Of a stretch of DNA of 64,000 nucleotides, positions 40,778 through 45,378 are shown one piece after another. The stretch lies in assembly GCF_011758655.1 (NCBI RefSeq), contig NZ_JAAMPA010000002.1, forward strand, positions 992,001 to 1,056,000. Direction: 5' to 3'. Origin of the DNA: Modestobacter marinus (GTDB lineage: Bacteria; Actinomycetota; Actinomycetes; Mycobacteriales; Geodermatophilaceae). Each line of letters opens with the position of its first letter. Within the stretch, counting starts at the first letter, position 1. The notes under the pieces are model-generated. The model was not told the DNA's origin. It made no database searches and saw only the letters and a program-made list of their open reading frames with translations. The position numbers and the translations under genes are program-made.

Positions 40778-43675
40778 TCAGCCGAGGACGAAGTTGACCA
40801 GCCGGCCCGGGACCGCGACGACCCGGCGCACGGTGGCGCCGGCGAGGTGTCCGGCGATCCGCTCGTCCGCCCGGGCCGCCGCCTCCAGCGCCGCGGCGTC
40901 CGCGTCCGCCGGCACGGCCACCTGGGCCCGCACCTTGCCGTTGACCTGCACGGCGACCTGGACGGTGTCGTCGACCAGCCACCGCTCCTCGGCGACCGGG
41001 AACGGCGCCCACGCCACGGAGTCGGCGTGCCCCAGCCGGGCCCACAGCTCCTCGGCCAGGTGCGGGGCCAGCGGGGCGACCAGCAGCACCAGCGGCTCGG
41101 CGACCGACCGGGGCACCGGCGTCCCCGGCGGGCAGGCCGAGGTCAGGTGGTTGGTCAGCTCGGTGATCCGGGCGATGGCGATGTTGAACCGCAGCGTCGT
41201 CATGCCGTCGCGCACGGCCTCGATCGCCCGGTGCAGGGCCCGCGAGGTCTCGTCGTCCGGCTCGACGTCGGCGGCGCGCACGGCGCCGGACTCCTCGTCG
41301 ACCACCACCCGCCAGAGCCGCTGCAGCAGCCGCTGGGACCCGACCGCGGCCTTGGTCTCCCACGGCCGCGACTGGTCCAGCGGGCCGGTGGACATCTCGT
41401 ACACCCGGAAGGTGTCCGCCCCGAACATCGCGATCATCTCGTCCGGCGTGACGACGTTCTTCAGGCTCTTGCCCATCTTCCCGTACTCACGGGTGACCGG
41501 TGCGCCCTCGTACAGGTACTGCCCGTCCCGCTCGACCACCTCGGCCGCCGGCACGTGGAAGCCGCGCTCGTCGGTGTACGCGTAGGCCGAGATGTAGCCC
41601 TGGTTCACCAGCCGGCGGAACGGCTCCTCGCTGGAGACGTGCCCCAGGTCGAACAGCACCTTGTGCCAGAACCGCGCGTACAGCAGGTGCAGCACGGCGT
41701 GCTCGACCCCACCGACGTACAGGTCGACGCCGCCGACGTCGCCGGGCTCCCGCGGGCCCATCCAGTAGGCCTCCAGCTCCGGGTCGACGAAGCGCTCGTC
41801 GTCCGCCGGGTCCAGGTAGCGCAGGTAGTACCAGCACGAGCCGGCCCAGTTGGGCATCGTGTTGGTCTCGCGCCGGTAGCTGCGCGGCCCGTCGCCCAGG
41901 TCCAGGGTGACCGTCGTCCACTCGGTGGCCCGGGACAGCGGCGGCTCGGGCTTGGAGTCGGCCTCGTCGTCGGCGAACGTCTTGGGCGAGTAGTCGTCGA
42001 CGTCGGGCAGCAGCACCGGCAGCATCGACTCGGGGACGGCGATCGGCAGGTCGGCGTCCTCCCCGTCGGCGGCGTAGACGATCGGGAACGGCTCACCCCA
42101 GTAGCGCTGCCGGCTGAACAGCCAGTCGCGCAGCTTGTAGGTCGTCGTCGCCTCGCCGGAGCCGTTCGCGACCAGCCACTCGGTGACCCGCGCGATCGCG
42201 GCGGCCTTGTCCAGCCCGTCCAGCGACAGCTGCTCGTTCGAGCTGTTGATCATCGGACCGGTGCCGGTGTACGCACCGCCGTCGAAGTCGGCCGGCGGCT
42301 GCACGGTCCGGACGACGGGCAGCCCGAACTCCTGCGCGAAGTCCCAGTCGCGCGGGTCCTCGCCGGGGACCGCCATGATCGCGCCGGTGCCGTAGCCGGT
42401 CAGCACGTAGTCGGCGATGAACACCGGCAGGTCGGCCCCGGTCAGCGGGTTGCGGGCGGTGGCGCCCAGCCAGACCCCGGTCTTCTCCCGGCCCTCGGCC
42501 TGCCGGTCCAGCTCCGACCGGCGGGAGGCCTGCCGCTGGTAGGCGGCGACGGCCTCGGCGGGGGTGGCGGCACCGGCCGTCCACCGGGGGTCGGTGCCCT
42601 CGGGCCACTGGGCGGCGGTCAGCGCGCCGACCAGCGGGTGCTCGGGAGCGAGCACCAGGTAGGTGGCGCCGAACAGGGTGTCCGGCCGGGTGGTGAAGAC
42701 CTCGACCGTCTCGCCCGCCACCGCGAAGCGGACGCGGGCGCCGGTCGAGCGGCCGATCCAGTTGCGCTGCATCTGCTTCAGCGAGTCCGACCAGTCCAGC
42801 CGGTCGAGGTCGGTCAGCAGCCGCTCGGCGTAGGAGGTGATCCGCATCATCCACTGGGTCAGCGGGCGGCGGAACACCGGGAAGTTGCCCCGCTCGGACC
42901 TGCCGTCCGGGGTGACCTCCTCGTTGGACAGCACGGTGCCCAGCCCGGGGCACCAGTTCACCGGCGCCTCGTGCCGGTAGGCCAGCCGGTGCGCGTCGAC
43001 GACGCGACGGCGCTCCACGGGGGTCAGCTCCGCCCAGGTGCGCCCCTCGGGCAGCGTGCCGTCGGCCGGCTGCCGGGTGCCGGCGTCCAGCTCGGTGACC
43101 AGCTCGGTGATCGGGCGTGCCTTGCCCGCCTCCGGGTCGAACCAGGCCTCGAAGACCTGCCGGAAGATCCACTGGGTCCACTTGTAGTAGCCCGGGTCGA
43201 TCGTGGCGAAGGTGCGGCGGGTGTCGTGGTCGACGCCGAGGCGCCGCAGCTGGGCGCTGATCGCGGCGATGTTGGCCTCGGTGGTGACCCGCGGGTGCTG
43301 CCCGGTCTGCACGGCGTACTGCTCGGCGGGCAGGCCGAAGGCGTCGTAGCCCATCGGGTGCAGCACGTTGTGCCCGTCCATCCGCAGGAAGCGGCTGGTC
43401 ACGTCGGTGCCCAGGTAGCCCAGCGGGTGCCCGACGTGCAGCCCGGCGCCCGAGGGGTACGGGAACATGTCCATCAGGAAGGCCTTGGGCCGGTCGGCGA
43501 CCCGGTCGAAGCCCTCGCTCAGCCGGCCGACCGGATTGGGCGTGTGGAACGTGCCCTCGGCCGCCCACCGGTCCTGCCAGGCGAGCTCGATCTGCTGCGC
43601 CAGGGCCGGCGTGTACCGGTGTGGCGGCACCCCGTCGGCGGTGGGTTCGGTGTTCTGGCTGGCCGTCTGGCTCAT
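40778..43675 (-). CDS. leuS: Leucyl-tRNA synthetase
   Basis: This 965-residue class Ia synthetase charges tRNA-Leu. The HIGH motif is HVGH in [18 protein letters not shown], the KMSKS loop is KMGKS in [10 protein letters not shown], and the CP1 editing domain has [18 protein letters not shown]. The C-terminal anticodon-binding and tail domains are complete. ATG 43675 was chosen because GGGAG lies 8 nt upstream; a GTG five codons earlier overlaps that signal. Upstream is an apparent leucine-responsive attenuator with a leader peptide. leuS is not part of this neighbourhood in mycobacteria. Confidence 0.96.
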
Positions 43676-43713
43676 CGTCGGTGCTCCCACGGGAAGGATC
43701 TGGCGGCGGACAG

Positions 43714-43740
43714 AAAAAGACCCCTCACTCAGGAGGGGTC
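43714..43740 (-). terminator. Intrinsic terminator (attenuator) in the leuS leader
   Basis: On the minus strand GACCCCTC (43740-43733) pairs exactly with GAGGGGTC (43726-43719) around a 6-nt loop and is followed at once by TTTTT (43718-43714). It lies 38 bp before the leuS start codon, inside the transcript leader. Most other hairpins in this window lack such a T-run, so this one is a convincing Rho-independent terminator placed to control leuS. Confidence 0.8.
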
Positions 43741-43776
43741 GCCGTGCTGGTCTGCTCGAGGTCAGATCAGCACGGC
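43741..43776 (-). promoter_or_regulatory. Competing leader hairpin upstream of the leuS attenuator
   Basis: GCCGTGCTG (43776-43768) pairs exactly with CAGCACGGC (43749-43741). The 5' arm overlaps the last codons and stop of the leader peptide and the 3' arm abuts the terminator stem, so ribosome position on the peptide should decide which structures form. Confidence 0.6.
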
Positions 43777-43802
43777 TCGGGAAGCAGGAGTCCGCCGGTC
43801 AC
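43767..43802 (-). CDS. leuS leader peptide (11 aa, three consecutive Leu codons)
   Basis: A GTG at 43802 opens an 11-codon frame [11 protein letters not shown] with consecutive CTC, CTG and CTT leucine codons, stopping at TGA (43767-43769). A -10 box TAGGAT (43810-43815, minus strand) ends 7 nt before the GTG, so the transcript is predicted to start with the peptide's own start codon. This is the classic layout of ribosome-mediated attenuation: a ribosome stalled for lack of charged tRNA-Leu would change folding of the downstream hairpins and let RNA polymerase pass to leuS. Leader-peptide attenuation is known for actinobacterial amino-acid operons. Function here is inferred from layout. Confidence 0.7.
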
Positions 43803-43809
43803 GCAGCCG

Positions 43810-43815
43810 ATCCTA
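43810..43815 (-). promoter_or_regulatory. -10 box TAGGAT of the leuS leader transcript
   Basis: TAGGAT ends 7 nt before the leader-peptide GTG, the same spacing as for the leaderless genes elsewhere in this window. No good -35 element is visible in the GC-rich upstream sequence. Confidence 0.55.
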
Positions 43816-44164
43816 GCGCGCGGCCGCACCCCCCACCTCGACGTCGGGGCCGATCAGCCCGTAGCCTGCACTGGCTCGACTGCGGACGGGCGAGGAACTC
43901 CCGCGGGGACGGCCCCAGCAGGACGACCACTGCCCGCACGCACCGGGACGTCGAGGTCCCCCGGAACCCAGCAGCGCCGCGCGGCACGCGGCAGCGCGGA
44001 CCGGAGGACGGCCCCGGTGCCGGCCGGGTGCACGCCGCCCCACCCGTGCCGCTGCACCCGCGTGCAGCGCACGACCCCGGAGGCGGCCCGCAGGGGCAGC
44101 ACCCGCCGCCGGCCGGTCGCCGAGCACACGCACGGTCGAGCCGACCGACGGAGGAGGAGCGAGC
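43816..44164. other. Intergenic region between leuS leader and CDP-glycerol transferase genes
   Basis: This 349-bp divergent gap holds no convincing gene. Frames through it are Arg/Pro-rich and lack start signals. It must contain the promoter for the plus-strand glycerophosphotransferase genes, but I cannot pick out a clear -35/-10 pair. A GAGGAGGAG ribosome-binding site ends it at 44152-44160. Confidence 0.5.
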
Positions 44165-44254
44165 ATGAGAGAACGCCCAGGACCCGACCGGGTCACGCGG
44201 TGCCCCCGGCACCGGGCGACCCTGCCCTCCGCCGTCCCGGCCCGCCGACGGTGA
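44165..44254 (+). CDS. 29-codon ORF with strong ribosome-binding site, coupled to glycerophosphotransferase
   Basis: ATG 44165 follows GGAGGAGGAG at an ideal distance, the strongest such site in the window. It encodes a basic 29-residue peptide starting MRERPGPDRV. Its TGA overlaps the GTG of the downstream transferase gene (GTGA). It may be a real small protein or serve to deliver ribosomes to the next start. No homologue is known to me. Confidence 0.4.
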   Translation: MRERPGPDRVTRCPRHRATLPSAVPARRR

Positions 44255-45378
44255 AGGTCGTCTTCAACAGCTTCGGCGGCCGGTACAACGACAACCCGCG
44301 GGCCATCTACGAGGCCCTCGTCGCCCGGGGCACCGAGATGGACGCCGTCTGGCTGGCCCGTCCGGACCTGCGGGCGGACTTCCCGGCCGGCGTGCAGACC
44401 GTGGAGACCTGGGGCCCCGACGCCCGGGCGGCCGTGGAGTCCGCCGACGTCATCGTCTCCAACGACGGCATCTCCCGGGAGTGGGACAAGCAGCCCACGA
44501 CGACCTACCTGCAGACCTGGCACGGGACGCCGCTCAAGCGGCTGCACCGGGACGCGGTGTGGGCCCCGGAGGGCCGGCTGGAGCTGGTCATGCAGGACAT
44601 CGCCCGGTGGGACCACCTGCTCTCCCCCAACGCGGCGAGCACCCCGCACCTGCGCAGCGCCTTCGGCTTCACCGGCCCGGTGCACGAGACGGGCTACCCG
44701 CGCAACGACGTGCTCAGCGCGCCCGACCGCGACCGCCGGCGGGCCCGGGTGCGCGCCGCGCTGGGGATCGCCGACCACGTCACCGCCGTGCTCTACGCCC
44801 CGACCTGGCGCGACGACCTCGTGCTCGCCGACGACGGCCCGGCGCACACGTTCCCGGTCGACCTCGGCGACCTCGCCCGCGGCCTGGGTCCGGACCACGT
44901 GCTGCTGGTCCGGCTGCACGCGATGGTGTCCGACCGGCTGGAGGTCCAGGGCACGGCCCCGTTGCTCGACGTCTCCCGGCACCCCGACATCAGCGAGCTG
45001 TACCTGGCCGCCGACGTCCTGGTCACCGACTACTCCTCGACGATGTTCGACTTCGCCGTCACCGGGAAGCCGATCGTCCACTTCACCTACGACCTCGAGC
45101 ACTACCGCGACGACCTGCGCGGCTTCTACTTCGACCTGGCCGAGATCGCACCGGGCCCGCTGCTGACCACCAGCGAGCAGGTGCTGACGGCGATCGCCGG
45201 GCTCGGCGGGCGTCCATGGATGCCCACCGAGCGGTACAACCGGTTCCGGGAGCGCTTCTGCTCCCTGGAGGACGGCGCCGCCACCGAACGGGTCCTCCAG
45301 CTGTTCTTCCCCACCGACGGCCACCCCGGCCGGCCGGGCGACACCCCCGTGCCAACGAACGACGAACCGAGGAGATGA
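44251..45378 (+). CDS. CDP-glycerol glycerophosphotransferase family protein
   Basis: This 375-residue GT-B-like enzyme has the TagB/TagF-type signatures TYLQTWHGTPLKRL, VLYAPTWRDD and VLVTDYSSTMFDFAVTGKPIVHFTYDL. Such enzymes add glycerol- or ribitol-phosphate units to teichoic-acid-like polymers at the inner membrane face. GTG 44251 gives the usual KVVFNSFGGRYNDNPRAIYEAL N-terminus; an alternative GTG at 44200 is in frame. A nucleotidyltransferase gene follows at once, which suggests a small module that makes an activated polyol phosphate or sugar and polymerises it. The exact polymer is unknown. The pair is absent from the equivalent mycobacterial region. Confidence 0.87.
   Translation: MKVVFNSFGGRYNDNPRAIYEALVARGTEMDAVWLARPDLRADFPAGVQTVETWGPDARAAVESADVIVSNDGISREWDKQPTTTYLQTWHGTPLKRLHRDAVWAPEGRLELVMQDIARWDHLLSPNAASTPHLRSAFGFTGPVHETGYPRNDVLSAPDRDRRRARVRAALGIADHVTAVLYAPTWRDDLVLADDGPAHTFPVDLGDLARGLGPDHVLLVRLHAMVSDRLEVQGTAPLLDVSRHPDISELYLAADVLVTDYSSTMFDFAVTGKPIVHFTYDLEHYRDDLRGFYFDLAEIAPGPLLTTSEQVLTAIAGLGGRPWMPTERYNRFRERFCSLEDGAATERVLQLFFPTDGHPGRPGDTPVPTNDEPRR

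Follow-up and report, generated by a model that had tools for sequence, protein, structure and literature searches.

We find that leuS of Modestobacter marinus is preceded by a short leader that is probably a ribosome-mediated transcription attenuator of leuS, and that would respond to leucine. The leader lies on the minus strand of the window, i.e., the whole 64,000-nucleotide stretch analysed here (contig NZ_JAAMPA010000002.1, positions 992,001 to 1,056,000), and comprises a small frame with three consecutive Leu codons, a hairpin (A) across the end of that frame, and an intrinsic terminator hairpin (T). Leaders of this kind are already known from Streptomyces, and the way in which T is prevented from forming looks unusual.

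Layout and distribution of the leader

Re-reading of the sequence confirmed, exactly to the base, the layout proposed in the first-pass annotation: TAGGAT, 7 nt, a GTG frame of 11 codons, a 9-bp hairpin, and an 8-bp terminator with T5, all ahead of leuS (Table 1). Numbered with GTG 43802 as nt 1, the Leu codons occupy nt 13-21, A nt 27-62, T nt 63-84 and T5 nt 85-89, and the 5′ arm of A, which begins 5 nt past the Leu run, contains the stop codon of the leader. RNAfold of the window leader gives both A and T (z = -5.5, with 0 of 200 shuffles as stable). The CCCCTCN6GAGGGG shape has a single location in the genome of 5.1 Mb, but this rarity alone says little, since matches to the reversed pattern are nearly as rare (two forward and two reverse). 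No clear -35 box was seen by eye upstream of TAGGAT, and the -10 spacing suggests a transcription start on the GTG or immediately beside it. The gene downstream is identified as leuS by the NCBIfam profile TIGR00396 (score 868 bits, cut-off 548), and the closest LeuS among the named genomes is that of Modestobacter caceresii, with 93% identity in the best segment.

Table 1. Features of the leuS leader region, with positions in the window
Feature	Position	Strand	Basis
-10 box TAGGAT	43810..43815	minus	Sequence; TAnnnT 6 or 7 nt ahead of the start codon in 147/147 parsed leaders
Leader ORF, probably leaderless; GTG 43802-43800, 11 codons + TGA	43767..43802	minus	Sequence
Control codons CTC CTG CTT (Leu-Leu-Leu)	43782..43790	minus	Conserved Leu codons in leaders
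Hairpin A, GCCGTGCTG/CAGCACGGC, 9 bp + inner 4 bp	43741..43776	minus	RNAfold, leader parsing, alignment
Intrinsic terminator hairpin T, GACCCCTC-CTGAGT-GAGGGGTC, flush with A	43719..43740	minus	RNAfold, leader parsing, alignment
U-tract of T (T5)	43714..43718	minus	Sequence
P0 long-range helix, 5′ strand CGGCGGAC, codons 2-5	43790..43797	minus	Fold; permutation tests
P0 3′ strand GTCCGCCG, directly past the U-tract	43704..43711	minus	Fold; permutation tests
leuS probable Shine-Dalgarno GGGAG, 8 nt ahead of ATG 43675	43684..43688	minus	Sequence
leuS, leucine--tRNA ligase; ATG 43675 (mechanical ORF start = GTG 43690)	40778..43675	minus	TIGR00396

Conservation of the Leu codons and the terminator in relatives had been set beforehand as a test of the proposed attenuator, and our searches demonstrated that the Leu run, A and T are kept through the family Geodermatophilaceae and beyond. 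A DNA similarity search with 181 bases found the leader in 105 of 112 genomes of this family; of the seven genomes that it missed, the six with a leuS start all proved to carry this leader once the sequence ahead of that gene was inspected, and for the remaining one (G082, 73% complete) no leuS start was obtained. A covariance model built from A and T, trained on both Streptomyces and family members and applied at E <= 0.01, matched 165 of the 393 class genomes, representing 60 of 123 genera, and gave no match in 228, including 20 listed genomes of family f2 from the same order. Seventy matched loci were fetched (the 30 best matches and 40 picked for variety), and 63 of these precede leuS, with the adjacent LeuS identified by tblastn in 62 cases and by eye in one more (L202).

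The other seven fetched matches, from family f17 (L238, L251, L253, L257, L258, L267 and L268), precede citramalate synthase and have Ile-rich leaders, for example MPSSLIIIARRAG (GTG read as M). The Ile run lies 4-5 nt from A, and A lies 0 nt from T in 7 of 7, T having been sought only close to A. The assignment to citramalate synthase comes from the downstream frames; two of the seven were compared with NCBIfam, and TIGR00977 was the best profile for these, scoring under the full-length cut-off as the queries comprised only 120 residues. These leaders would form an isoleucine attenuator of cimA, the start codon assigned being provisional in several.

Our detailed comparison used 147 parsed leaders, including that of the window: 114 from the family, with some genomes represented twice, and 33 from Streptomyces and Amycolatopsis. 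Probable duplicate genomes are present among them (e.g., L006/L147, L007/L128, L047/L146 and L189/L194). The parser allowed 4-9 nt between TAnnnT and the start codon, and required such a -10 box for the 33 leaders outside the family; the distance was 6 nt in 87 leaders and 7 nt in 60. Start codons were GTG in 109 and ATG in 38, and stop codons TGA in 141, TAA in five and TAG in one. The survey of named loci covered those outside L050-L084 (a range of mostly other phyla) together with L066 and L077, and 9 of 47 named leuS loci gave no leader by parser (L008, L014, L017, L028, L038, L040, L044, L046 and L048), although in L008 a leader is visible by eye. Rows excluded were L159 and L197, where no leader was parsed, and L009 and L173, where the terminator pattern was unmatched. 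L197 has a poorer LeuS match and is probably a paralogue, and in L159 (genome G004, one of the 105 found by DNA similarity) the leader frame is shifted by 1 nt with A and T intact, through either decay or a sequencing error. Among the 70 fetched loci the parser returned nothing for 14, seven of them the citramalate synthase matches, and spacing was measured in 51 of the other 56. In L106, Leu-Glu-Leu-Phe stands in place of the Leu run.

Conservation of the codons, the hairpins and their spacing

In the 97 family leaders with LLL, the first and second positions of the Leu codons are invariant and the third positions vary. Because the Leu codons change synonymously, and because start codons interchange with one another as do stop codons, the leader frame is, by inference from selection, probably translated. 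The position of the stop codon is variable, lying between -2 and +23 nt from the start of A across 51 leaders. For example, in L245, L247, L248, L249 and L262 the stop comes one codon after the Leu run, and the CCGC of the arm of A, which elsewhere encodes Pro-Arg, is still kept; in L244, L250 and L256 the frame continues beyond the usual stop. This retention of CCGC behind early stops suggests that the usual end of the peptide, Pro-Arg or Pro-Cys, serves the RNA rather than the peptide, so that Leu would be maintained as codons and the arm of A as RNA. CTT is the final codon of the Leu run in 85 of 108 family leaders, in 29 of 32 leaders of other families, and in 34 of 34 in a second group (the 33 from outside the family and L194, a repeat from the family). 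Among the 256 Leu codons of six ORFs in the window, of which leuS alone was checked as a gene, CTT does not occur, and this rare codon seems to be kept as the last control codon.

In a 62-row alignment, 98.8% of the cells of A and T are paired, and three pairs show changes on both sides (15 cells): two of the nine in A, where 99.3% of cells are paired, and one of the eight in T, where 98.2% are. None of 500 shuffles reached the observed number of paired cells, of cells with both-sided changes, or the covariation score, and 25 and 28 of 500 reached the observed number of both-sided pairs and of pair types, respectively. The covariation support for A and T is modest, because the arms hardly vary. 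In this alignment of family, Streptomyces and Amycolatopsis leaders, the loop of T (43726-43732; CTGnGnG) is also nearly invariant, which is unexpected for a terminator loop. When the last G of the T stem is counted as -10, positions -1/+1 are T/G in all 113 family leaders that were measured out of the 114, and T/T in 33 of 33 leaders outside the family. The elemental pause consensus is G-10 Y-1 G+1, which the bases after T in family leaders appear to resemble.

The spacing between these parts is nearly fixed, while the span of A ranges from 20 to 75 nt. The Leu run lies 5 nt from A in 120 of the 147 leaders, and A ends 2 nt from CCCCTC, i.e., flush with the full T stem, in 128. In 18 leaders A extends one or two bases (four in L162) into the outermost pairs of T, and in L090 it ends 6 nt ahead of CCCCTC. 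The 51 further leaders, from unlike lineages except that two are family repeats, gave 5 nt between Leu run and A in 34, 0 nt between A and T in 34, and an overlap of A with T by one base in four. We rely on these distances and discarded a count of no further outward pair at the base of A in 147 of 147, because the helix was drawn at its longest and the count therefore follows from the method.

Prevention of the terminator

Folding the whole leader at equilibrium, with the ribosome masked, placed T in nearly every state and likewise failed to discriminate for E. coli trp. Since it was uninformative, we replaced it by folding RNA that ends before the 3′ arm of T, with the span of the ribosome masked, and scored the pairing of the 5′ arm of T in all 147 leaders. 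The same test was applied to the thr, leu, trp and his attenuators of E. coli K-12, where pairing in the stalled leaders was 0.66-1.0 for thr, 0.75 for leu and 0.83 for trp, compared to 0.01-0.03 at the stop codon. The his leader was not discriminated (0.69-0.74 compared to 0.74), hence three of four controls were positive. In the leuS leaders, mean pairing was 0.07, 0.15 and 0.25 with the ribosome at the first, second and third Leu codon, 0.34 at the stop codon and 0.26 without a ribosome, and pairing of the arm exceeded one half in none of the 147 leaders stalled at any of the three Leu codons, compared to 11 leaders with the ribosome on the stop codon and 13 without a ribosome. Thus, the E. 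coli trp, thr and leu leaders share with the leuS leaders the control codons, the terminator and the opposition of a stalled to a finished ribosome, but in predicted folds they lock the 5′ arm of T when stalled, whereas the leuS leaders do not. Pairing of the 3′ arm of A with the loop of T was considered and rejected, because although 93.5% of cells are paired, the helix has 4 bp and stalling does not favour it.

Base-pair competition is therefore absent from the predicted folds, despite the overlap of one or two bases in some leaders. The leader does have the classical run of cognate codons ahead of a synthetase gene, and on these predictions it would work like an attenuator, yet not one of the classical type, since the folds contain no antiterminator. 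The first-pass annotation had called the region a leucine attenuator without naming an antiterminator; the conserved Leu run, A and T ahead of leuS support this, and no antiterminator that acts by base pairing was found to complete it.

In the mechanism we propose, RNA polymerase would start at or beside the GTG and a ribosome would load on the bare 5′ end. With ample Leu-tRNA, the ribosome would reach the stop codon and cover the 5′ arm of A, T would form, and leuS would not be transcribed; with scarce Leu-tRNA, it would wait on the Leu codons, A would fold, T would fail, and leuS would be transcribed. How A prevents T is the more tentative part. We suggest, as something possible rather than probable, that it does so by steric docking with no antiterminator: A, of variable length, would abut both the stalled ribosome and T, holding the ribosome against the base of T, so that T could not close in the exit channel of the polymerase. 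The arrangement would be modular, serving Leu codons ahead of leuS and Ile codons ahead of citramalate synthase. The front edge of a ribosome lies some 15 nt beyond the first base of the P site. With the ribosome waiting on the first Leu codon, this edge would stand at about nt 25-28, where A begins, and A ends where T begins; on the stop codon the front would be at about nt 46, keeping A open and leaving about 16 nt of slack in which T forms. We favour docking because the spacing from Leu run to A to T is nearly fixed while the span of A and the stop codon are variable, and because no base-paired antiterminator is predicted. Against it, docking depends on this general footprint figure, a ribosome that waits on the third Leu codon would cover 5 bp of A, the reach of A into the outermost pairs of T in 18 of 147 leaders does not fit, and the fixed spacing could partly reflect shared descent.

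A classical two-state switch, with A as an antiterminator competing with T for the same bases, is what the Streptomyces leuS prediction of 2005 implies, and that paper labels leuS leaders as classical attenuators with antiterminator and terminator hairpins (PMC1262725). Likewise, the C. glutamicum ilvBNC attenuator resembles our leader in having a leader peptide, control codons and two touching hairpins before the structural genes, but there the adjoining hairpin bases overlap by three nucleotides, GCC, and compete, and a third hairpin is present (PMC11857589), whereas here A is flush with T in 128 of the 147 leaders. The overlaps noted above (18 of 147 leaders, and one base in 4 of 51) and the weak 4-bp helix between the 3′ arm of A and the loop of T, with one covarying pair, also lean towards such a switch. 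However, 128 of 147 leaders have A flush with T and L090 has it 6 nt short, and pairing of the 5′ arm of T is lower at the Leu codons than at the stop, i.e., in the wrong direction and opposite to E. coli thr, leu and trp. We consider a two-state switch unlikely, and docking remains the reading we prefer.

In folded read-through RNA of the window, the first leader codons pair with a segment past the U-tract, forming a helix that we call P0. When partners were swapped among 60 family leaders, the leaders' own partners paired better in two windows next to T (z -6.2 and -5.2, 0 of 1000 each), as they did in a stricter set of 36 (z -4.7 and -4.1). Control windows (nine around or after T, three upstream and eight other 5′ windows) gave z from -3.4 to +1.6, the window at -3.4 overlapping the same 5′ strand of P0. 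Permutation within genera gave z -4.9 and -4.5 (0 of 1000), with controls from -2.6 to +2.0, two of them at 7 and 10 of 1000. The register of P0 varies between clades, and outside the family the signal is not clearly seen: for 33 leaders from Streptomyces and kin, the corresponding window scored z +0.5 and its neighbour -2.2 (19 of 1000), and for 33 leaders of other families z was -1.9 (33 of 1000), against -1.7 for a control. Formation of P0 in the read-through fold (57 of 60) was rejected as evidence, since swapped partners pair too (279 of 300). Because its 3′ strand follows the termination point, P0 marks read-through RNA only; that it hides the start of the leader or shields the 5′ end are guesses.

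Control could instead act mainly after transcription, with P0 governing re-translation of the leader, mRNA stability or translation of leuS, and T serving as a partly leaky brake. The preference for own over swapped partners within the family would fit this. Set against it are the location of the 3′ strand beyond the U-tract, the lack of a clear P0 outside the family although the attenuator is there, and a Shine-Dalgarno region of leuS with no covarying partner in seven leader windows (98 of 109 leaders, 11 having lacked an assigned start; in L085, GTG 43690 was used as the start and not the ATG). This makes mainly post-transcriptional control quite improbable. A second small frame past the U-tract (NTG-TCC-GCC...) was examined and rejected, as it opens with CTG in 44 of 109 leaders and can stand in any frame (0, 1 or 2) with respect to leuS, the leuS start being assigned for only 38 of 109.

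It is extremely improbable that the frame is untranslated and T is a constitutive terminator or a product of chance: beyond the small size of the frame (11 codons) nothing was found in favour of this, whereas the frame and its Leu codons are conserved with synonymous change and interchanging start and stop codons, and the putative neighbouring gene upstream appears to lie on the opposite strand (ORF 43621-45378, +, from the ORF list), so that T would end no upstream gene. As judged from these comparisons, the conservation, the covariation of A and T, and the restriction of Leu codon changes to third positions exceed what chance would give. A T-box was also considered and rejected, as no Rfam family, T-box included, matches the 64-kb window at gathering score.

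Relation to known leaders

T-boxes control aminoacyl-tRNA synthetase genes through tRNA charging, and the leuS leader serves the same class of gene, but here sensing would be by the ribosome. The attenuator leaders of E. coli trp, thr and leu start from a Shine-Dalgarno sequence. The first-pass annotation held that a leaderless leader peptide is unusual for an attenuator, and this does not stand: in a 2021 RNA-seq study of S. lividans, seven of eight leader peptides are called leaderless (PMC8079986), and mycobacteria are reported to have leaderless Cys leaders. A probably leaderless peptide before leuS is itself supported, both by the 6-7 nt between -10 box and start codon in all 147 leaders and by the relative reported as leaderless in S. 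lividans.

The window leader has the traits of a Streptomyces-type leuL, namely a short Leu-run frame right before leuS, a hairpin across the peptide end, and a terminator with a U-tract. Attenuators of leuS were predicted in S. coelicolor and S. avermitilis in the 2005 paper (PMC1262725). In S. lividans TK24, the 2021 study gives leuL2 (MRAVRLLLSEPR) ahead of leuS as a leaderless three-Leu leader with a hairpin and an intrinsic terminator with U-stretch (PMC8079986); the leader of the window, which is probably leaderless, has the same parts. It differs from leuL2 in the sequence of its 11-residue peptide, its GTG start and a shorter loop of A. Our fetched Streptomyces loci have the order and spacing of the window leader, and a single covariance model spans the leaders of both groups, both being in its training set; P0 has support in the family of the window, but in Streptomyces no clear sign of it was seen. 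A run of control codons ahead of a terminator does not by itself prove attenuation, since codon substitution left regulation unchanged in Streptomyces ilvB, according to the 2005 paper (PMC1262725).

Full-text searches returned nothing, in the passages they covered, on a leuS leader in Geodermatophilaceae, on docking as a mechanism of this leader, or on attenuation of citramalate synthase through Ile codons. A comparative paper of 2010 reportedly treats attenuators of synthetase operons and may cover some of these findings.

Through our analysis the leuS leader, so far reported for a few Streptomyces, is traced to 60 of the 123 genera sampled in the class. The element has no matching Rfam family in the window, and a covariance model and a list of its parts are now provided. 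The analysis also raises the question of how a ribosome could keep the terminator from forming when, in most leaders, terminator and upstream hairpin have no base in common. If docking holds, searches for competing hairpins would miss such attenuators.
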